Positions 18,839 through 32,749 of a stretch of 64,000 bases of DNA are shown piece by piece (position 1 is the first letter of the stretch; each line of letters begins with the position of its first letter). Made by a program: the position numbers and the translations under genes. The DNA comes from Candidatus Methylomirabilis sp. (lineage in GTDB: Bacteria; Muiribacteriota; Ozemobacteria; Ozemobacterales; Ozemobacteraceae), in the NCBI GenBank assembly GCA_020722725.1, contig DYKG01000001.1, positions 62,001 through 126,000 of the forward strand. Direction: 5' to 3'. The notes under the pieces were generated by a model that was not told the DNA's origin, did no database searches, and was given only the letters and a program-made list of their open reading frames with translations.

Positions 18839-20680
18839 ATGAGCAGACCAGATTATTTGCTTTTCGATAAAAACACCACTTCAGTTATTTACGGCATGCA
18901 GACCAAAGCGGTTCAGCGCATGCTCGATTTCGATTATTGCTGCCGTCGTGCCATTCCTTCGGTAGGGGCGATGATCGACCCGGGAAAAAGCGGAACGGAA
19001 AAAGTTTTCTGGGGCAAAAAAGAGATTTTCATACCGGTATACCCCGATGTGAAGACTGCTTTGCAGAAACACCCCGATATTGACGTTATGATTAACTTTG
19101 CCTCGTTCAGAAGTGCTTACGACACAACCATGGAAGGGCTGAATGAACCTAAGCTTCGCACTATCGTGGTAATTGCCGAAGGTATTCCCGAACGCCTGGC
19201 CAGGCACTTGCGCGAAGTTGCGGTTAAGAAAAACAAAATCATCATTGGCCCGGCAACTGTTGGCGGAATTGCTGCCGGCGCTTTCAAGGTTGCCAATACC
19301 GGCGGAACAATTGAAAGTATTATTGAATCTAAATTACATCGACCGGGTTCGGTTGGTTTTGTCAGCAAGTCGGGCGGCATGTCGAATGAAGCATACAACA
19401 TCATCGCGCTCAATACCGACGGTCTTTATGAAGGTATCGCGATCGGTGGTGACGCGTATCCCGGCTCTTCGCTGCTCGAACATCTGCTGCGCTTCGAAGC
19501 CAATCCGGCAATCAAAATGCTGGTAAGTCTTGGCGAAGTGGGCGGCGAAGAAGAATGGAAAATCGTTGAAGCGGTTAAGACCGGCAAAATTAAAAAGCCT
19601 CTGGTTATGTGGGTTACCGGAACTTCGATCAAATACATGCCCAGGGGCATTCAGTTCGGTCACGCCGGTGCCAGGGCCGATGCTACCAGAGAAACCGCCG
19701 AAGCAAAAAATGCCGCTCTCAAAGAAGCCGGAGTTGTAGTGCCGGAATCATTTGATGATTATGATAAGGCAATCAAACAGACATATGAAAAACTGGTGGC
19801 TAAGGGTGTAATTAAGCCTGCGCCTGAAGTTGAGCCCCCAGTCATTCCCATGGATTATGCCGAAGCGGTTGCCCGCAACATGGTTCGCAAGCCGACCAGT
19901 TTCACTTGTACCATTTCCGATGATTCGAAAGACGAGCTGCTTTATGCCGGTCATAAAATCAGCAAAGTCATTGGTGAAAACTACTCGATCGGTGAAACTA
20001 TCGGGCTATTGTGGTTCAAGGAACGGCTGCCCAAGTGGGCTGCCGAATTTATGGAAATAGTCATCAAGCTCTGTGCTGACCATGGTCCGGCAGTTTCTGG
20101 TGCTCATAACACCATCGTTACTGCCCGTGCCGGTCGCGACCTGATGAGCGCTGTGGCTTCAGGAATGCTGACTATTGGCCCACGATTTGGCGGGGCGGTT
20201 GCCGGTGCTGCTCTGATGTTCAAAGATGCACAGGATCGCGGATTGAGTGCAGATGCATTCATTGCCGAGCTTAAAAAGAAGAATATCAAGATTCAGGGTA
20301 TCGGTCATCGCATTAAAAGCTTGAAAAACCCGGATATGCGCGTAGTTCTTCTCAAAGACTATGCAGCCAGGAATTTCCCCGGAACCCGTCTGCTTAACTA
20401 TGCTCTTGAAGTGGAAAAGCTGACTACTGCCAAGAAAGATACGCTGATTCTCAATGTCGACGGTTGCATAGGCGTGCTTTCTGTCGATATGATGTATGGC
20501 CTCGGCTGGTCTGAAGAACGAATTCAGCAGGTGGTTGACGGCGGTGGTCTCAATGGCATGTTCCTGCTTGGCCGCACCATCGGCATGATCGGTCATTACA
20601 TGGATCAGAGCAGGCAAAAAGCCGAACTCTACCGACATCCCTGGGATGACATTCTTTACGATCTGCCCGCCGGCGAATAA
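18839..20680 (+). CDS. aclA: ATP-citrate lyase, CoA-binding/citrate-synthase-fold subunit
   Basis: 613 aa. The N-terminal CoA-binding and ligase domains carry the phosphorylated histidine in RGIQFGHAGARADA (His275). The C-terminal citrate-synthase-like lyase domain (about 355-613) shows DHGPAVSGAHNTIVTARAG, GPRFGGAVAGAA and QGIGHRIKS, with a closing DGCIGVLSVDMMYGLGWS. All catalytic elements expected for citryl-CoA formation and cleavage are present, so the complex should be functional. GAGGAAAGGAAG lies upstream of ATG. It is cotranscribed with aclB and followed by a strong terminator. No other reductive TCA genes (2-oxoglutarate ferredoxin oxidoreductase, fumarate reductase) are in the window, so autotrophy cannot be inferred from this alone. 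Confidence 0.96.
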   Translation: MSRPDYLLFDKNTTSVIYGMQTKAVQRMLDFDYCCRRAIPSVGAMIDPGKSGTEKVFWGKKEIFIPVYPDVKTALQKHPDIDVMINFASFRSAYDTTMEGLNEPKLRTIVVIAEGIPERLARHLREVAVKKNKIIIGPATVGGIAAGAFKVANTGGTIESIIESKLHRPGSVGFVSKSGGMSNEAYNIIALNTDGLYEGIAIGGDAYPGSSLLEHLLRFEANPAIKMLVSLGEVGGEEEWKIVEAVKTGKIKKPLVMWVTGTSIKYMPRGIQFGHAGARADATRETAEAKNAALKEAGVVVPESFDDYDKAIKQTYEKLVAKGVIKPAPEVEPPVIPMDYAEAVARNMVRKPTSFTCTISDDSKDELLYAGHKISKVIGENYSIGETIGLLWFKERLPKWAAEFMEIVIKLCADHGPAVSGAHNTIVTARAGRDLMSAVASGMLTIGPRFGGAVAGAALMFKDAQDRGLSADAFIAELKKKNIKIQGIGHRIKSLKNPDMRVVLLKDYAARNFPGTRLLNYALEVEKLTTAKKDTLILNVDGCIGVLSVDMMYGLGWSEERIQQVVDGGGLNGMFLLGRTIGMIGHYMDQSRQKAELYRHPWDDILYDLPAGE

Positions 20681-21700: not shown

Positions 21701-22819
21701 TTAAAACTGCCAGGTTGCTGAACAGCTGTAACGCCTGTCTTCATCGTCGCCGGGATTCTGTCCCAACTCTTCGCTGTAGGTGCTGGCTTGAAAGCGCCAG
21801 TCGTTCCAAACTATTCCGGCTCCACCAGTAAAATAGCCACTTCTGATGCCGGCCTGCAAATAAAAGTGTCGTGAAAGCTTCATTTCAGCACCCATTCTGA
21901 CTTTGGTCAGAGTCGATCCATCTTCACCGGTTTCCCAGTAATCGACGGCGAGCAGAAGTTTCTCGTTGCGTTCTTCGGGGCCGGTCAGCGGCCTGAAAGA
22001 AGCTCCAAAGGCAAACTGTCTTTTCAGGGTGCCGATGTCGGCAGAGAATTCTGAACTCAACAGATTGCCCGCAAATACACCGACGGTTGGTTTCCAGGAA
22101 TTGTTCAGCTGCCAGAGCGCTCCGATGTCAAAATCCATGGTGGCACCCGAACGGTCAGTATCTTTGAGAATATCTTCGTTGAGGGCGGCAAAATCGCGGG
22201 CATAAAAAATTTTATCAGATGCGCGGCGGGAAACGAATTTCATCGTTGCGCCCCACCAGCCCATGGCCCGGTCTTTGAACAGGTTTTGTGCTTCGTTGAA
22301 AGATCGGGCGATCGAACCTGAAAGAACCGCATCTTTCTCAACTTTGGCACTTATCGACGGGTTGACCGGGTTGTTGACCGCAAAACTTTCCGATTCGCGA
22401 TAGTAACCGGCAATGCCAAATCCGGTTCCGCCGATGTAATATGCAAGGTTGGAAAATGCCTGCCAGCCCTGCTTGCCCATAATTTCAATCAGATTATTGA
22501 AATTGCTGGTGCGTGCGCCGGCGGTGTCGCCACTGTTCAATGCGGCAATATGATTGTCAACATCATCATAATCGATGTTGCGTTCAAAATGTCCATTTAA
22601 GAAGGAATAAGAAGACTTGTTCTGCAGGCCGAGTCCGGCAGGGTTACAGAAAAGAGCCTGATGGTCATCTGCAACTGCCACACAAGCTCCACCCATTCCC
22701 ATTGCCCGTGATGATTCGTAAACCACCGGGGTTGCTGCATGTGACGGTGTGCATAAACCTGCCGCCAGAAGGCAGATGAACCAGATTTTTTCAAGCATCG
22801 CTTTGAATTCTGTTTTCAT
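21701..22819 (-). CDS. Outer-membrane beta-barrel protein (FadL/PorV/TraF-like)
   Basis: 372 aa. Signal peptide 1-28 (LLAAGLCTPSHA). The mature start YESSRAMGMGGACVAVADD and QALFCNPAGLGLQ is the hallmark of the FadL/PorV/conjugal-TraF-like barrel group (N-terminal gate with NPAGL). The rest alternates polar and aromatic residues as in transmembrane beta strands and ends CSATWQF, with the terminal Phe used for BAM-mediated insertion. This supports an outer membrane in the host. The ligand is unknown. Its ATG overlaps the stop of the upstream lipoprotein gene by 4 nt (ATGA), so the pair is translationally coupled and likely works together. Confidence 0.82.
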   Translation of the reverse strand: MKTEFKAMLEKIWFICLLAAGLCTPSHAATPVVYESSRAMGMGGACVAVADDHQALFCNPAGLGLQNKSSYSFLNGHFERNIDYDDVDNHIAALNSGDTAGARTSNFNNLIEIMGKQGWQAFSNLAYYIGGTGFGIAGYYRESESFAVNNPVNPSISAKVEKDAVLSGSIARSFNEAQNLFKDRAMGWWGATMKFVSRRASDKIFYARDFAALNEDILKDTDRSGATMDFDIGALWQLNNSWKPTVGVFAGNLLSSEFSADIGTLKRQFAFGASFRPLTGPEERNEKLLLAVDYWETGEDGSTLTKVRMGAEMKLSRHFYLQAGIRSGYFTGGAGIVWNDWRFQASTYSEELGQNPGDDEDRRYSCSATWQF

Positions 22820-23652
22820 TCGCTGCCGTCCAGATTTACCAGGGTTTGCTTGAACAGTGCTTCAGAATTATTGAAATAAACCTGCGCAGCTTCAAGACTG
22901 TCGGTAAGGTTGCCGATGGCAATAACGGTCTGTCGGTTGGCTGCGGTGAAATTTCCTTCGAAGCGTGAGCCCTGAACCGGCGAAATGAGAACCCAGTCGT
23001 CGCCGCGCCCGTCAAAAGCCTGGGCAAGATCATAATAGGCCAGCTCCAGCGAATAATGAGAAGTCAGCGAAATCAGGTCGTTGTAAATGGCTGCCCACAG
23101 AGCCGCTTTGTCGTCGCGGGTATCGAAGTCAATCTGGTCATTTTTATCGAGGCGGCCATTGAAATTGGTGTCGTATTTATCTACCAGCAATTTTGCCTGA
23201 TAAACACCAACCAGCAGCCCGCGCATAAGACGGTCCCGGGCGGTTGGCAAAGAAAGGCGCCAAAGGTCGTCGATTGCCTGTTTGATCAGATCTTTGTCTT
23301 TAACATAAGAAGCGGCCTGAAAGATTACCGCCGGCGAATCACCCGGGGTTACGCCGTTCTGCATGGTCTGAAGTGATTTGAACATGTTGAACCGGGCAAT
23401 TCCGGCGCGGGAGCTGGCAAGTCCGCGTCTTACCTCGTCAGTGGCCGAGCCCTGCACGGCAGCCCGCTCGAAAAGCTCGAGTGCGTCGGCAAAGCGACCT
23501 TCATCGATGGCTATTTTCCCGCGACTGATAAGAGAAGCCTGATCTGTGCCGGTTAAGCTCTGGTTAAATGCTTCGAAGCTGTTGCATCCACTGCCGATCA
23601 GCATCAGCAAGGTTAAGGCCAGAGCTATTGCGGTTCGATGACGCGAAGCCAT
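22816..23652 (-). CDS. Lipoprotein with TPR-like N-terminus and an EF-hand-like loop
   Basis: 278 aa from MASRHRTAIALALTLLMLIGSGC, a type II signal peptide with lipobox LIGSGC. Residues 45-90 fit a TPR-type helix pair (RGKIAIDEGRFADALELFERAAVQG). A calcium-binding-like loop, DTNFNGRLDKND, lies near residue 165 and matches the D-x-N-x-N-G-x-L-D spacing of EF-hand and dockerin loops. I know no named family. The start is chosen at the ATG after GGGAGGAAAT; the ATG four codons earlier lies inside that Shine-Dalgarno. First gene of a two-gene unit with the outer-membrane barrel, so a periplasmic accessory role is plausible. Confidence 0.8.
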   Translation of the reverse strand: MASRHRTAIALALTLLMLIGSGCNSFEAFNQSLTGTDQASLISRGKIAIDEGRFADALELFERAAVQGSATDEVRRGLASSRAGIARFNMFKSLQTMQNGVTPGDSPAVIFQAASYVKDKDLIKQAIDDLWRLSLPTARDRLMRGLLVGVYQAKLLVDKYDTNFNGRLDKNDQIDFDTRDDKAALWAAIYNDLISLTSHYSLELAYYDLAQAFDGRGDDWVLISPVQGSRFEGNFTAANRQTVIAIGNLTDSLEAAQVYFNNSEALFKQTLVNLDGSE

Positions 23653-23807
23653 ATTTCCTCCCATCCTGGTTTCCTGACAATAATCGGCAGCTTTGCGGGA
23701 AAAATGAATTTTTAGGAGAAAAATTTTTGGCAGGGTTGCAGGCGCGGAAATTTATCGGACAAGTTCTGGTAAGGGCGTTGATTTCGCGGTCTCAAATTGA
23801 CAGTTTT

Positions 23808-24062
23808 TTAAAGTGTGATTGCCATGAGAATAATACCCAGGGTGACCGCCAGAGAGAATTCGCACTTGTCGTATTCTAAAGCCATGGTGGTCATGGTGCG
23901 GGTAAGCCCCTTGATATTGCCGCCAAGTATGCCGGGTAAAGCGGCACAAAACGTTGAAATTATGCTGATTTTCAGAGAAAACCAGACAATTGTCAGCAAT
24001 TCAGGGTTGGCTTCGATGATCAATCTGAAGGCAGCCTGCAGACTTTCTAAAAGAAAAGACAT
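23808..24062 (-). pseudogene. Shortened TupB-like (tungstate ABC permease) ORF, central part missing
   Basis: 84 aa where the family has about 230. Residues 1-45 (FLLESLQAAFRLIIEANPEL, then LTIVWFSLKISIISTF) match the N-terminus of TupB permeases. Residues 46-84 (LGGNIKGLTRTMTTMALE, then FSLAVTLGIILMAITL) match its extreme C-terminus. The junction is in frame, so a central deletion of about 130-150 residues is inferred, removing the inner-membrane pore and ATPase-coupling loop. The ATG directly abuts the stop of the upstream 45-aa ORF. No tupC ATPase follows. It should be non-functional as a transporter; a small membrane protein cannot be excluded. Confidence 0.65.
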
Positions 24063-24200
24063 TCAGGGTTTGGGCAGCGTGAAAAATACCTGCTGACCGG
24101 CAATTCTGAAGTTGTTAATCATTTTCATATCCTGCGCAAAGAGCGGGGCAATTGCCAGCGCAATCATAAAAGTGATCAAGAGAATTGGTTTCAGGCTCAT
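24063..24200 (-). pseudogene. Shortened TupA-like (periplasmic binding protein) ORF
   Basis: 45 aa: a full signal peptide (MSLKPILLITFMIALAIAPL, then FAQD) followed by about 20 residues, INNFRIAGQQVFFTLPKP, resembling the end of a TupA-type tungstate-binding protein (typical ending: I-x-D/N-F...G-x-x-L/V-F-F). That would be an in-frame loss of nearly the whole mature domain. GGAGATATAAAG and a promoter-like sequence remain upstream. The TupA link rests mainly on the TupB-like neighbour. Confidence 0.45.
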
Positions 24201-24361: not shown

Positions 24362-25156
24362 ATGAAGGCAGGTTTTGTGCAGTTTGCCCCGGAATTCTGT
24401 AATTATGATCGAAATTTGGTGCTGGTCGAAGACATTCTAGATGCGAGCGATCAGGTCGATCTACTGGTTTTGCCGGAACTGGCCAATTCAGGCTATAACT
24501 TTGCCAGTCGCGAACAGGCTTTTGCCAATGCAGAAGAAGTTAATGACAGTCGTTTTATCAAAGTTCTTCATGAATACTGCCGGCGGCGAAAATCTTATGT
24601 GGCCTCGGGTTTCAACGAAAGGGTTGGCGATCAGCTTTTCAATTCAGCGATTCTGGTTGGCCCCGATGGCTTGATCGGCAAATATCAGAAAATTCACCTG
24701 TTTTTGAACGAAAAAGATATTTTTACCCCCGGAGAAGCAGGCCTGCCGGTTTTCGCAACACCCATCGGTCGCCTGGGTCTGCTGGTATGCTTTGACTGGA
24801 TATTCCCGGAAGTATGGCGAATCCTTGCGTTAAAGGGCGCTGATATAATTTGTCATTGTTCTAATCTGGTTCTGCCGGGCTTTGCCCAGCGTTCGGTGCC
24901 AATTCACGCGTTGATCAACCACTTTTATGTCATAACCGCCAACCGCATTGGCAGTGAGGGATCTCTAACCTTTACCGGCATGTCAACGATTGCCGATCCC
25001 AGGGGAAACGTGCTTTATCAGGCCGGACCCGACACGATGGAGTTGCGTTTTTTCAATTTTGACCTGGAAAAGGCAAGAAATAAGCAGATGACGCCGCGCA
25101 ACGATCTTTTTGCCGATCGCCGCCCTGAAATGTATCAGGAGCTTTTGAAACTGTAG
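24362..25156 (+). CDS. Carbon-nitrogen hydrolase (nitrilase superfamily)
   Basis: 264 aa, a single CN-hydrolase domain of normal length. The catalytic triad is in place: Glu39 in VLPELANSGYNF, Lys110 in YQKIHLFLNEKD, Cys143 in LLVCFDWIFPEVWR. The family hydrolyses amides or nitriles (omega-amidase, N-carbamoylputrescine amidase, formamidase and others); the substrate cannot be assigned here. TGGAGA precedes the ATG. No signal peptide, so cytoplasmic. It begins a tightly spaced unit with a solute-binding lipoprotein (13-nt gap) and a diguanylate cyclase (4-nt overlap), which hints that the ligand sensed outside may be related to its substrate. Confidence 0.9.
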   Translation: MKAGFVQFAPEFCNYDRNLVLVEDILDASDQVDLLVLPELANSGYNFASREQAFANAEEVNDSRFIKVLHEYCRRRKSYVASGFNERVGDQLFNSAILVGPDGLIGKYQKIHLFLNEKDIFTPGEAGLPVFATPIGRLGLLVCFDWIFPEVWRILALKGADIICHCSNLVLPGFAQRSVPIHALINHFYVITANRIGSEGSLTFTGMSTIADPRGNVLYQAGPDTMELRFFNFDLEKARNKQMTPRNDLFADRRPEMYQELLKL

Positions 25157-25169
25157 AAGGGGAAAAGTT

Positions 25170-26348
25170 TTGCGAATCTGGTTGCCCGGGCTTGTTTTTC
25201 TGCTGATTATGATGGCTGGTTGCGAAAACCATGATTATACCACCCGCAGCCACGATAAGATTGAAGTGTGGCTCGATGCCGGGCCGGAATTGCTGACCAT
25301 GCTGCGCGACGAGGTAAAAAATCGGCAGAATGACTATCCCGGCCTGAAGGTCAATTTCAGGGTTTTTCGCTTTGAAGATTTAAAACCGGCCATTCTTGGC
25401 AGTATTTCGGCGGTAGAAAAGCCAGATATTTTTATGTTTTCATCGGACTGGCTGGGCGAAATTGTGCAGGCCGGCCTGATCGCTTCAGTTTCATTGCCGG
25501 CTCAAGAATACCTTTCGGTAGCGTCAGAAGCCATGTTTTTTAACGGTTCATACTGGGGCTGCCCATGGAGTCTCGATACCATTGCATTGATAATCAATCG
25601 CGATCTGGTAAAGATTGTTCCAGAAAATCTACAGCAAATGATTGATTTAAAAAATAATTTGCCAAATGGAGTTTACCCTCTTCTCTACGACAACAAGAAT
25701 TTTTACTACCATGCCCCCTGGTTTCACGCTTTCGGAGCCTCTGTCTTTGACGAAAAAGGCTTCTCGGTCGACGGTCCAGAGTCAGCAGCAGCGCTTGACT
25801 TCGCTTATGAACTTGAAACCCTGCACGAACTGGTCCCCGGAAAGGCCAATCAGGCTGCAGCCATTAACCTATTCTGCGCCGGAAAACTGGCAATGACGAT
25901 CAATGGTCCATGGGCAATACCCGAATTTATCAAAAACCGGGTTAATTTTTCAGTGGTTCCAATTCCGGGGCCTGATTCGCAGAAAGTGTCCCGACCACTG
26001 GTTGGCATCAAGGGGTTGGCCATCGCCAGCCAATCTGCAGCAAAACCAGGTGCTGAAAAAGTAATGAGTCTGATTGCCGGACAAAGCTTTCTGCAGCGTG
26101 CAGCAGAAAAATCAATGTTCATACCCTGTTTGAAGAGTTCGGGTCAGAATGACCTGGTCAAAGGTTTTGTCGAGCAGGCGCAAAATGGCGTTCTTATGCC
26201 ATCCAGACCAGAAATGAGATATGTCTGGTCTGAAATGAATCGGGCATTGCGGCTGAAATTTTCAGAAAAACGCTCGTCTGCCGAAATTCTTTTTGAGGCT
26301 CGTAATCGGCTCGATTCTGCTGTAAAAAAGGCAGGTAGAGAACAATGA
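25170..26348 (+). CDS. Extracellular solute-binding lipoprotein (ABC type 1, sugar-binding-like)
   Basis: 392 aa. TTG start giving MRIWLPGLVFLLIMMAGC; the lipobox MAGC places Cys18 as the lipidated residue, and no later in-frame ATG would keep the signal. The mature protein has the type 1 solute-binding-protein fold: IEVWLDAGPELLTMLRDEV, PDIFMFSSDWLGEIVQAGL, GSYWGCPWSLDTIALIINRD, AINLFCAGKLAMTINGPWA. The ligand is probably a carbohydrate or related polar molecule. No ABC permease or ATPase genes lie beside it. Instead its stop overlaps the start of a membrane diguanylate cyclase, suggesting it serves as a ligand-loaded sensor partner. Confidence 0.88.
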   Translation: MRIWLPGLVFLLIMMAGCENHDYTTRSHDKIEVWLDAGPELLTMLRDEVKNRQNDYPGLKVNFRVFRFEDLKPAILGSISAVEKPDIFMFSSDWLGEIVQAGLIASVSLPAQEYLSVASEAMFFNGSYWGCPWSLDTIALIINRDLVKIVPENLQQMIDLKNNLPNGVYPLLYDNKNFYYHAPWFHAFGASVFDEKGFSVDGPESAAALDFAYELETLHELVPGKANQAAAINLFCAGKLAMTINGPWAIPEFIKNRVNFSVVPIPGPDSQKVSRPLVGIKGLAIASQSAAKPGAEKVMSLIAGQSFLQRAAEKSMFIPCLKSSGQNDLVKGFVEQAQNGVLMPSRPEMRYVWSEMNRALRLKFSEKRSSAEILFEARNRLDSAVKKAGREQ

Positions 26349-28402
26349 AAAAGATCATGATTGTATTGTTCATTTTAATTGTCTGTTTGCCGATGCTGCT
26401 TGCGTTTTATTGGGCATCTGCCTTTGCCTCGCAGAAAATTGAAGCAATGATGCGGGAAAGAGCCGAAAACAGATTTCGGGTTGCCGAAGCTCTTTTAATG
26501 CAGAAAATTGGGGAAGTTCGGCTGAAAGCCGGGATAATAACTCAGCAGCGCAATATTCGAACCGCTGTTGAGACCGGCGATCTGATCGAGTTGATTGATT
26601 TGCTGAATTCCATGCTTAAAGATCTTGGCCTGAGCACTCTTGCAGCAGGAGCTGAAATTTATGCTGCTGACCAACAATTGCTGGTGGCTGAACCGAGAAA
26701 TCCATCACTGACTGCTGATATTGGTTTGATTAAATCGGGGTTGGGCGGCAATCTGGCCGAAAAAATCTATTTCAAAGACCAGCGCCTGATCTTTGGCGCT
26801 GCGGTTCCCATCTATTGTCAGAACAACTCTAACCCTGCTGCAACTTTGATTTTGTATCTGGTGGTTGATGAAAATATGGTCGATTCGATCAGAGCGGTGG
26901 TAGATGCCGAAATAGTCCTGTTTTCACAGATCAACAATACGGTTAATCTTTTGACCTCGACCCTGGTAGACAATAATCGGCGGGTTTTTCCGGTTATAAC
27001 TGATCCGGGCAGCGGTATCGGTGAAGTCGGCGCCGCCGGGCGGCGTTTCATGGTTCGATCAGGAAGTTTTCTCTGTGAAAATGGTCGTTTTACCCTTACA
27101 GTGGCCCTGGAAAAGCGCGAGTTGACCGAAATTCTCAATTCGTTGCGCGATGTGTTTTTCAAAACCGGTCTAGTGGCAATTCTTTTTGCATTGCTGGTAG
27201 CGATAGCTTTTTCAGGAATTCTCATCCGACCGGTGCAATCACTCGTTGATGTCGCCCGAAATTTTGGTGCCGGCAATCTTGAAGCTTCGGCTGATGTTTC
27301 AAGCTTTGTGCCTGAGCTGCAGTTTCTTGGTGAGACTTTTTCCAGTATGACCAGGCAGATCAGGAATAAGATCGATGAAATTGAAGCAGCGCGGCAGGCA
27401 CTCGACAAGAAAGTTTTCGACCTTTCGGTGCGCAATCTTATCAATCAGGCAATAATAAACAAAAGCGAAGACTCGGTTCTGAAAGAACTGCTTGAAATAG
27501 TTTCAGAAATGATGAGAACCAGGCGCAGTTCAATGCTTCTGTTGAACGAAGTTACCGGTGAATTGTCTCTCAAACTGGCAGTGATTAAAGATGAACATGG
27601 CAAGCGCATCGAACAGGATGATAGTCACACAACTTTCGCGCCCGGCGAAGGCCTGGCCGGGTGCGCCGCCCGCCAGGGTCGCGGAATTTTTTCAAATGAT
27701 CCTTTTAATGACCCGAGGTTCAAGCAATCAGGTCGGGTGATCAGAAATCTGGTGGCCGTGCCTTTATTCGACGAAGGCAGGGTGATCGGGGTAATCAATG
27801 TTTCTGACCGAGCCGAAGACTTCACCGAAGAAGATACCCAGTTACTACAGGGAGTTGCAGACCAGATAGCAATTGCTCTACAGAAAACGCGACTGTATGA
27901 GCTTGCTATCACCGATGGTCTGACCGGGTTGTTCATTCATCGCTATTTTCAGATGCGTCTCGAGTCGGAAATTGCAAGAGCCAACCGCAGCAGTGAAAAG
28001 CTGGCTTTGATCATTTTCGATATCGATCATTTCAAAAAATTTAATGATACCTACGGGCATCAGGTCGGAGACCGGGTTATCCGGCTGGTTGCCGATCGGG
28101 TGCGAAAGAATATTCGTGAAGGTATCGATATTGCTGCCCGATACGGTGGCGAAGAATTTACCGTAATCATGCCTGATACCGATTTGAAGGGCGCTCTGGC
28201 TTTTGCTGAGCGCCTGCGGCAATCGATCGAGCAAAGCAGTATCGATCATGATGGCAGCCAGCTCAGGGTGACTGTCAGTCTCGGCTGCGCCATTTTCCCT
28301 GATCATGCACAGACGCGGGAAACCCTGATCTGCAATTCTGACAGCGCACTTTATAAATCAAAAGAGAATGGGCGAAATCGTTCGACACCATTTGAAAAAT
28401 AA
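26345..28402 (+). CDS. Membrane diguanylate cyclase: sensor-HAMP-GAF-GGDEF
   Basis: 685 aa. Makes cyclic di-GMP. Transmembrane helix 1 at about 4-24, a periplasmic Cache-like sensor to about 270, helix 2 at about 273-296, HAMP to about 345, a coiled coil, a GAF domain (about 370-525, ending VADQIAIALQKTRLYELA), and GGDEF with active site RYGGEEF (first Gly 601). FDIDHFKKFNDTYGHQVGD carries the metal and guanine contacts, so it should be active. The product-inhibition I-site position (RxxD, five residues before GGEEF) reads E-G-I-D, so feedback inhibition is probably weak or absent. The ATG overlaps the stop of the binding lipoprotein gene, a coupling that suggests direct functional pairing. 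Confidence 0.93.
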   Translation: MKKIMIVLFILIVCLPMLLAFYWASAFASQKIEAMMRERAENRFRVAEALLMQKIGEVRLKAGIITQQRNIRTAVETGDLIELIDLLNSMLKDLGLSTLAAGAEIYAADQQLLVAEPRNPSLTADIGLIKSGLGGNLAEKIYFKDQRLIFGAAVPIYCQNNSNPAATLILYLVVDENMVDSIRAVVDAEIVLFSQINNTVNLLTSTLVDNNRRVFPVITDPGSGIGEVGAAGRRFMVRSGSFLCENGRFTLTVALEKRELTEILNSLRDVFFKTGLVAILFALLVAIAFSGILIRPVQSLVDVARNFGAGNLEASADVSSFVPELQFLGETFSSMTRQIRNKIDEIEAARQALDKKVFDLSVRNLINQAIINKSEDSVLKELLEIVSEMMRTRRSSMLLLNEVTGELSLKLAVIKDEHGKRIEQDDSHTTFAPGEGLAGCAARQGRGIFSNDPFNDPRFKQSGRVIRNLVAVPLFDEGRVIGVINVSDRAEDFTEEDTQLLQGVADQIAIALQKTRLYELAITDGLTGLFIHRYFQMRLESEIARANRSSEKLALIIFDIDHFKKFNDTYGHQVGDRVIRLVADRVRKNIREGIDIAARYGGEEFTVIMPDTDLKGALAFAERLRQSIEQSSIDHDGSQLRVTVSLGCAIFPDHAQTRETLICNSDSALYKSKENGRNRSTPFEK

Positions 28403-28495
28403 ATCAGAAATTGTTATATAAGTAGTGCCGTTTCAATCTAAATCGGTTAACTTATTATCAGTTATCTTAACTTTATTGCAGGAGGCATGATATCA

Positions 28496-29020
28496 ATGCT
28501 GAAGCTAAAAAAAATCGTTACTCTTATGGTCATTTTCTGTTTTGCTCTGGTTATGCCCGGATGTGCCCAGGGTGAAGTCAAGGTTGCTCCTGAGATTACC
28601 GCAGGAAAATGGATAAATGCTGACAGCTTTTCGCTTGCCAGTAACAAGGATAAAATTGTTGTCGTTGAATTCTGGGCAACCTGGTGCCCGCCCTGTCGTC
28701 AGAGCATTCCTCACCTCAAAGAACTTTATGAAACCTACAAAGATAAGGGCGTAGTTGTGGTTTCTCTTTCTAACGAACCGGCGGAAACCGTTGAAAGTTT
28801 CATGGCCAAAGCTGAAATGCCCTGGATTATCGGCGCTGAAAGCAATTCCGGCGGCGACTACGGTGTTTCTGGAATTCCCAGTGCTTTCATCATAGTTGAT
28901 GGCAAAATCGTGTGGAACGGTCACCCCATGGGCGGTCTCGATGAAGAGCTCAAAAAAGCCGTTGAAGCAAAGGGTTCAGCAGCGGTTCCGGCTACTTCTG
29001 GCGCCCCGGCGGCAAACTGA
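28496..29020 (+). CDS. TlpA/ResA-like thioredoxin-fold lipoprotein
   Basis: 174 aa from MLKLKKIVTLMVIF. Type II signal peptide with lipobox VMPGC. The thioredoxin fold contains the redox motif WATWCPPCRQS and cis-Pro loop VSGIPSAFIIVDG, followed by a low-complexity Ala/Pro tail (SAAVPATSGAPAAN). It acts as a periplasmic thiol-disulfide reductant or oxidoreductase, for example in cytochrome c maturation or envelope thiol repair. An ATG three codons earlier lies only 1 nt from GGAGG; the second ATG is 10 nt away and is preferred. The peroxiredoxin gene follows after 6 nt. Confidence 0.92.
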   Translation: MLKLKKIVTLMVIFCFALVMPGCAQGEVKVAPEITAGKWINADSFSLASNKDKIVVVEFWATWCPPCRQSIPHLKELYETYKDKGVVVVSLSNEPAETVESFMAKAEMPWIIGAESNSGGDYGVSGIPSAFIIVDGKIVWNGHPMGGLDEELKKAVEAKGSAAVPATSGAPAAN

Positions 29021-31313: not shown

Positions 31314-31420
31314 TCTGAAATCTATCGATCAATCAGTTAACCTGATTTTCAGAATTTTCCCCATAACATGGTAGATTCTGGTATCATTAAAGATGTATGA
31401 TATTAGTTACTGGAGCGTTT

Positions 31421-32749
31421 ATGACATCAAGACCACAGAGAAGCATATTAATAGCGTTTTTGCTTGTCCTTGGACTGTTCAATAACGTTAGCTGGGCTGA
31501 TCCTTCGGCGAAGATTGCATCAAGCGTCATGATTCAAGGCTTTGGCTGGAACAGTCAGGCGCGAGGTACACCCAGTAAATGGTACAGCCTGATCGGCCAG
31601 CGTGCCGAAAGTTTGCAGAGGCTTGGCGTTGATATGATCTGGTTTCCTCCGGTATCCAGATCGGTAAGCCCGCAGGGCTATTTACCCGGCGATTATTATG
31701 ACGTTGGAAGTAAAGATTCACCCACCTTTTATGGTGATCGGGAATCTTTGGTAAAAGCACTTGCCACTCTTAACGCCGCTGGAATCATGCCGGTCGCCGA
31801 CATTGTGGTCAACCACCGCTGTGCCGGCAAACAGGATAGCAACGGCATCTGGAATATTTATCATTTTGCTTCCGGCAAAGCCTCATGGGAACAATGGGCA
31901 ATCTGTCGCGGTGAATACGGTGGAACCGGCGGAGCTGATACCGGTGAAAACTTTGCAGCCGCACCAGATGTCGATCATACCAACCCCAAAGTCAGAGAAG
32001 ATATAATAGAATGGCTTAAATGGCTGAAAAAACTGGGCTTCAAAGCCTGGCGTTACGATTTTTCCAAAGGTTATGCGGCAAAATATGCCGGTATTTACGA
32101 TCAGGCCACTGCTGTTCCTTTCTCGGTCGGCGAAATCTGGGCCAACATGGCTTTTCAGGGCTCATACCTGCAGCCGAACCAGAATGCTCACCGCCAGATC
32201 CTTTGCGACTGGGTCGACGCTGCGAAATCAGAAGTGGGCTGTGTTTTCGACTTCACTACCAAAGGCATTCTCCAGGTTGCGGTTAATGGCGAATATTGGC
32301 GACTGAAAGACAGTGAAGGAAAACCATCGGGGCTGATCGGCTGGTGGCCGACCCGCGCCGTAACCTTCCTCGACAATCACGATACCGGCTCTCAGCAGAG
32401 TCACTGGCCTTTCCCCGACAAAAAAGTCATGCAGGGTTATGCTTATATACTGACCCATCCCGGCATTCCGTGCGTATTCTGGGAGCACGTCTACGACTGG
32501 AAACTATTTGAGCCAATTCACAAACTGATCGCCATTCGCAAGCAGTTTAAGCTTAACAGCGCCAGCAAGGTTAAAATTGAAAAAGCCGAGCAGGGAATTT
32601 ATGCCGCTGTTATCGATGGCAAAATTGCCGTTAAACTTGGTTGGGTTGACTGGACCCCCGGCGAAGGCTTCAAGCTTCTGGTCAGCGGCGACCACTATGC
32701 CGTCTGGGGAAAAACTGCTACCCGCACTTCTTCTTCTTCAAGACGCTGA
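31421..32749 (+). CDS. Secreted alpha-amylase, GH13
   Basis: 442 aa from MTSRPQRSILIAFLLVLGLF, a signal peptide ending NNVSWA. Hydrolyses internal alpha-1,4-glucosidic bonds of starch or glycogen outside the cytoplasm. The four GH13 signature regions are present: DIVVNH, GFKAWRYDF (nucleophile Asp213), VGEIW (acid/base Glu238) and FLDNHDTGS (Asp321). Features such as VMIQGFGWNSQ and the compact C-terminal beta domain are closest in my memory to the plant/archaeal GH13_6-7 type. A Ser-rich tail (TRTSSSSRR) ends the protein. TGGAG precedes the chosen ATG. It has its own strong terminator, so it appears monocistronic. Confidence 0.94.
   Translation: MTSRPQRSILIAFLLVLGLFNNVSWADPSAKIASSVMIQGFGWNSQARGTPSKWYSLIGQRAESLQRLGVDMIWFPPVSRSVSPQGYLPGDYYDVGSKDSPTFYGDRESLVKALATLNAAGIMPVADIVVNHRCAGKQDSNGIWNIYHFASGKASWEQWAICRGEYGGTGGADTGENFAAAPDVDHTNPKVREDIIEWLKWLKKLGFKAWRYDFSKGYAAKYAGIYDQATAVPFSVGEIWANMAFQGSYLQPNQNAHRQILCDWVDAAKSEVGCVFDFTTKGILQVAVNGEYWRLKDSEGKPSGLIGWWPTRAVTFLDNHDTGSQQSHWPFPDKKVMQGYAYILTHPGIPCVFWEHVYDWKLFEPIHKLIAIRKQFKLNSASKVKIEKAEQGIYAAVIDGKIAVKLGWVDWTPGEGFKLLVSGDHYAVWGKTATRTSSSSRR

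Follow-up and report, generated by a model that had tools for sequence, protein, structure and literature searches.

The window analyzed here is a stretch of 64,000 nucleotides from a Riflebacteria draft genome (3.6 Mb, 91.5% complete). Three open reading frames follow one another on its plus strand: a nitrilase-family hydrolase (Pfam CN_hydrolase, 264 residues, 24362–25156), a MalE-family (SBP_bac_1) solute-binding lipoprotein of 392 residues with a TTG start (25170–26348) and a transmembrane diguanylate cyclase of 685 residues (26345–28402). These positions and families agree with the original prediction, and the families are supported by Pfam matches to all three proteins. The nitrilase and lipoprotein genes are separated by 13 bp, and the lipoprotein stop and the cyclase start share the sequence ATGA, which is a 4-bp overlap. 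The right flank of the site is formed by a thioredoxin-like lipoprotein gene (28487–29020, plus strand), assigned from Pfam and gene order. A promoter and terminator scan around the locus returned signals at chance level only.

The cyclase can be subdivided into several regions, all on the plus strand. A first transmembrane candidate comprises residues 1–30 and the extracytoplasmic sensor spans residues 22–275 (26408–27169), for which a LuxQ-like dCache fold is predicted. This is followed by a second transmembrane candidate (residues 267–302; 27143–27250), a HAMP domain (27212–27364; Pfam 2.4e-6), a GAF domain (27461–27883; 4.5e-24) and the GGDEF domain (27905–28381; 2.9e-47), which has an intact GGEEF signature at residues 601–605. 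HAMP, GAF and GGDEF are the only domains that Pfam gives for this protein, and no EAL domain was found in it.

Recurrence of the pair and its neighbors

The lipoprotein and cyclase genes are found together in other genomes of the phylum and, as far as gene order and sequence comparison can tell, the pair is real and old. A contiguous, overlapping pair is present in the window genome (G000) and at G004:C46, G016:C5 and G026:C55. At G021:C149, the cyclase and the last residues of the lipoprotein lie at a contig edge, with the genes overlapping. The 4-bp overlap is also seen at G024:C99, where the cyclase is broken between the sensor and HAMP, and in G030 the two halves are on separate contigs, C407 ending in a truncated lipoprotein gene and C122 in the cyclase gene. 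The pair is therefore carried by 7 of the 39 phylum genomes, and the overlapping form extends to other Riflebacteria genera and families than that of the window. Its distribution is patchy, as it is missing from the remaining 32, including G001 from the same genus (84% complete). The proposal that lipoprotein and cyclase form a two-gene module is supported by the overlapping pairs in G004, G016, G026 and G021. The break in the G024:C99 cyclase (L109 8738–10699) reflects either decay or an error in the draft assembly.

Six of the pair binding proteins form a single clade with a support of 0.993 in a tree of 22 binding proteins. None of the 20 next-best SBP_bac_1 paralogues has a GGDEF gene nearby: permeases lie beside four of them, PTS and/or MalK genes were detected beside 15, and neither was detected at L303. 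A phylum-wide search with sensor plus HAMP gave a match in all 39 genomes, below 75 bits except in G000, G004, G016, G021, G026 and G030, and matches under 75 bits were not counted as pair members. When 381 genomes were searched with the sensor, 11 matched at E ≤ 1e-6, two of them outside the phylum at 32–37 bits. In one of these two (G298, 32 bits), the gene appears to overlap a binding-protein-like gene and to be followed by a response-regulator-like gene.

The three genes had been proposed to act as one unit, with the hydrolase acting on a compound related to the ligand, and this part of the original prediction was not supported. Relatives of the nitrilase with 66–70% identity are present in G004, G011, G016, G021, G022 and G023 at loci away from the pair, and in all six a thioredoxin-like lipoprotein gene follows. 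In G001, the thioredoxin-like gene comes directly after nitrilase residues 219–262 (57% identity), leaving no room for the pair. Three of these seven genomes (G004, G016 and G021) hold the pair elsewhere, while G011, G022 and G023 have the nitrilase and lack the pair. The nitrilase stands beside the pair in no genome examined other than that of the window. On gene order in the relatives, the trio as a unit was rejected and the nitrilase is judged a bystander. Since seven relatives have the nitrilase and thioredoxin-like genes side by side with nothing of the pair between them, the pair was most likely placed into the block in the window lineage; loss from all seven would be less economical.

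A role for the nitrilase in processing a compound related to the ligand would resemble the arrangement in Vibrio parahaemolyticus, where an enzyme gene stands before ScrB and ScrC. The short spacing, the common strand and the lack of a detected terminator between the nitrilase and lipoprotein genes are in its favor, but the occurrence of the nitrilase and thioredoxin-like genes without the pair in all seven relatives makes it very improbable.

The G004 block also includes two genes of window positions 21701–23664 and an alpha-amylase. A link between the pair and the window alpha-amylase (31397–32749) was considered and rejected, because in G004 (L189) the amylase belongs to the conserved block, which lacks the pair. 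Elsewhere to the left, the minus strand at 23808–24200 carries an ABC permease remnant, in which 84 residues align with TupB residues 136–215 of 230 (33.6 bits; cut-off 320), and beside it is a short piece that seems to resemble a binding-protein C-terminus. Positions 18839–20680 encode a protein of 613 residues whose CoA-binding, CoA-ligase and citrate-synthase domains are arranged as in an ATP-citrate lyase subunit.

The binding protein and the question of an importer

The lipoprotein matches Pfam SBP_bac_1 (1.1e-24) and also SBP_bac_8. The NCBIfam MalE model matches it at 1e-38 with 133.2 bits, which is under the cut-off of 291 bits. Its closest single-domain solved structures are Thermotoga maltose-binding proteins (T. 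maritima 2gha, 1.4e-36). The lipoprotein assignment made at the outset was confirmed by the lipobox, MAGC, at residues 15–18 (25212–25223, plus strand), where Gly17 and Cys18 are invariant in five of five aligned pair proteins. The importer-type relatives L104, L105 and L107 have no Cys at the aligned lipobox position. In E. coli, the residue following the lipoprotein Cys decides the membrane to which the protein is sorted. The pair proteins have E, Q, Q, G, N or Q at this place, for which the E. coli rule would predict sorting to the outer membrane and hence at a distance from the sensor.

The binding pocket was compared by eye, on the alignment with the solved maltose-binding proteins, using the ligand residues of E. 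coli MalE. The residues at W230, W340, Y155 and D65 are conserved, Asp stands in for E111, and W62, K15 and E153 differ. These residues weakly suggest a carbohydrate, and the ligand is probably an oligosaccharide. A predicted structure of the lipoprotein was set aside owing to its pLDDT of 54.

The protein has its family in common with MalE of the MalEFGK2 importers. The window pair differs from these in having neither permease nor ATPase, in having a lipobox and in missing the MalE cut-off. Judged by operon and by score, the lipoprotein is not a MalE importer component. As originally predicted, no ABC permease adjoins the pair, and none was found among the neighboring genes. The window genome has seven SBP_bac_1 matches and 11 BPD_transp_1 matches; the closer survey of the permeases took in those other than the match on C84. 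Sugar-type permeases are encoded at C55:84k, C47 and C73, each with its own binding protein in the operon, which at C73 is in one reading frame with the permease, and C10 encodes SBP_bac_11-type systems. The original prediction had raised an orphan permease elsewhere as the alternative user of the lipoprotein, and no orphan sugar-type permease pair was found in the genome. As this is 91.5% complete, a permease could be missing from the assembly. The one remaining candidate partner may be a lone permease domain at C61:177k, whose operon has no recognized binding protein.

These findings bear on the explanation in which the lipoprotein serves an ABC importer whose genes lie elsewhere and the cyclase is merely co-transcribed. 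Consistent with it are membership of the MalE family, the nearest Cloacimonadota and Schekmanbacteria relatives, which are followed by permease-type genes (domain confirmed for L104), the MalK-type ATPase at C55 and the incomplete assembly. We nevertheless regard it as unlikely, as each of the three sugar-type permeases at C55:84k, C47 and C73 comes with its own binding protein, and the genes next to the pair vary among genomes while the two genes themselves remain together.

The MalK-type ATPase on C55 (L037 6485–13107) lies with a MalE-like binding protein inside a PTS operon that includes IIB, a sorbose-type IIC, IID, HPr and EI; the Pfam scan of this operon covered the binding protein, the ATPase and IIC. 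No permease match was found near the MalE-like and MalK genes, and the ATPase could serve more than one system.

Sensor, output and the proposed receptor

The original prediction of a Cache-like sensor stands at the level of a predicted dCache fold, and not at that of Pfam, which gives no Cache domain in the window protein. Pfam dCache_3 is matched by one of five pair cyclases, at 0.0013, and a search of the sensor sequence against solved structures gave nothing better than E 0.071. A sensor model built from three sequences has a mean pLDDT of 80.6, and the other four of the five models have values of 32–45. Foldseek and VIA-align both return dCache folds for this model. With VIA-align, LuxQ aligns at Z 15.6–16.1 with an rmsd of 2.8–3.1 over 191–202 residues, and DctB at Z 15.5 with an rmsd of 4.5. 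These two are within 1 Z and therefore tied, with the LuxQ rmsd being the lowest among the full-length rows. Foldseek places PctA-type amino-acid sensors first by E-value. The model thus predicts that the sensor is a dCache domain whose nearest structures include LuxQ, the domain that is read by LuxP.

On the output side, the GGEEF signature is intact in all seven pair cyclases. The lack of the RxxD inhibitory-site Arg, which the original prediction pointed out, is seen in the window as EGID (28118–28129, plus strand), and Arg is absent from that position in seven of seven pair cyclases, all of which have an Arg one residue upstream. This shift is not special to the MalE-type pair, as the PhnD-paired cyclase described below has the identical one. 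With the RxxD Arg missing, classical I-site product inhibition is expected to be weak, so the output would follow the ligand. The window genome encodes two PilZ domains.

We consider it likely that the two proteins work as a c-di-GMP receptor gated by a binding protein, in which the lipoprotein, loaded with ligand, is the co-receptor that gates the cyclase. Here, the permease-less, MalE-type lipoprotein would catch its ligand outside the cytoplasmic membrane and close on it. In its open or closed form, it would dock on the dCache sensor of the cyclase, by analogy with LuxP on LuxQ. The second transmembrane helix and then HAMP would relay the signal, which a second input at GAF may join, and GGEEF output would change in a direction that may be either up or down. 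In favor of this reading are the recurrence of the pair amid changing neighbors, the single clade of its binding proteins, the own binding proteins of the sugar-type permeases, the LuxQ match, the conserved GGEEF, the PilZ domains and the two other binding-protein families paired with GGDEF proteins in the phylum. Against it stand the single confident sensor model with its tie between LuxQ and DctB, the outer-membrane sorting expected from the E. coli rule, the patchy distribution, the incomplete genome with its lone permease domain, and the C55 ATPase that may serve several systems.

Alternatively, the dCache sensor itself could bind a small ligand, with the lipoprotein serving only to buffer or scavenge that ligand. 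Many dCache domains do bind ligands directly, and PctA-type and DctB structures match the sensor model too. This explanation is doubtful, however, given that the overlap of the cyclase and lipoprotein genes is conserved and that LuxQ, which depends on a binding protein for its input, ranks with the best matches and has the lowest rmsd of the full-length rows.

The proposed receptor can be compared to several known systems. The likeness to LuxP–LuxQ (2hj9, 1zhh) lies in the modeled sensor fold and in the gating by a binding protein that is proposed here. In that system the output comes from a histidine kinase, LuxQ, and LuxP is of the ribose-binding type, whereas the output domain of the window protein is GGDEF. 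ScrB–ScrC of Vibrio parahaemolyticus, likened here by description, combines a binding protein with a membrane GGDEF protein; ScrC carries an EAL domain too, which the window cyclase lacks. This system was reportedly described by Trimble and McCarter in 2011. NspS–MbaA, known from Vibrio cholerae and Sinorhizobium meliloti (PMC8967002, PMC9993111), likewise has a GGDEF protein in the membrane on which a periplasmic binding protein acts. The gene arrangement is alike, the gene for a binding protein standing beside that for a transmembrane GGDEF protein. However, NspS is PotD-type and binds polyamines, whereas the window binding protein is MalE-type by its best named model and structures, and MbaA has GGDEF and EAL in place of GAF and GGDEF without EAL. 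On these domain assignments, the window pair is not NspS–MbaA proper.

A general binding-protein route to c-di-GMP enzymes is set out in excerpts of PMC9602780 and PMC11113362, which cite few enzymes gated in this way, namely those of Sobe 2017 (NspS–MbaA) and Trimble & McCarter 2011. According to PMC8846402, SBP_bac_3 is the only family within the periplasmic-binding-protein clan that had been studied in c-di-GMP networks. In the mostly open-access literature searched, no title or abstract opening describes a MalE-type protein paired with a cyclase or, for Riflebacteria, anything on these genes.

Other binding-protein and GGDEF pairs

The genome has 16 GGDEF loci, and by inspection three of them include an adjoining binding-protein gene: that of the window and those on C41 and C9. 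On C41 (L140 1926–4723), a PhnD-type lipoprotein (PF12974, 1.5e-66) is followed by a HAMP-GAF-GGDEF protein. A GGDEF gene lies no more than 60 bp away at 19 of the best 20 foreign matches to this PhnD-type lipoprotein, and the sole exception (L254) ends at a contig edge. On C9 (L121 4168–7253), a GGDEF-domain protein overlaps a TAXI-type binding protein (PF16868, 2.8e-58), for which a GGDEF gene is likewise found within that distance at 17 of the best 18 foreign matches. The TAXI-paired GGDEF signature is degenerate in several cases, the window genome among them, and intact in G002 and G026.

The role of the MalE-type pair is probably to sense a nutrient outside the cell. Tentatively, Riflebacteria may read several outside nutrients via dedicated gene pairs of GGDEF proteins with three unrelated binding-protein families (MalE-, PhnD- and TAXI-type), the MalE-type pair being a carbohydrate-gated diguanylate cyclase that senses the breakdown products of polysaccharides without importing them. 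If true, the MalE-type pair, alongside the two other pairs that are widespread in this phylum, would bring sugars and an uncultured phylum within the reach of binding-protein-gated c-di-GMP receptors and provide a small, testable set of genes.

Two further arrangements were seen in the genome. On C86 (L112 1355–5495), a 5′-nucleotidase-like membrane protein overlaps a GGDEF protein, and pairs of this type are present in L113–L120 by N-terminal sequence; the Pfam match is to the 5′-nucleotidase C-terminal domain only. On C78 (L149 1749–6235), the gene for a secreted protein of 319 residues without a Pfam match is followed by those for a dCache histidine kinase and a response-regulator-like protein; the secreted protein and the kinase are possibly another binding-protein pair.
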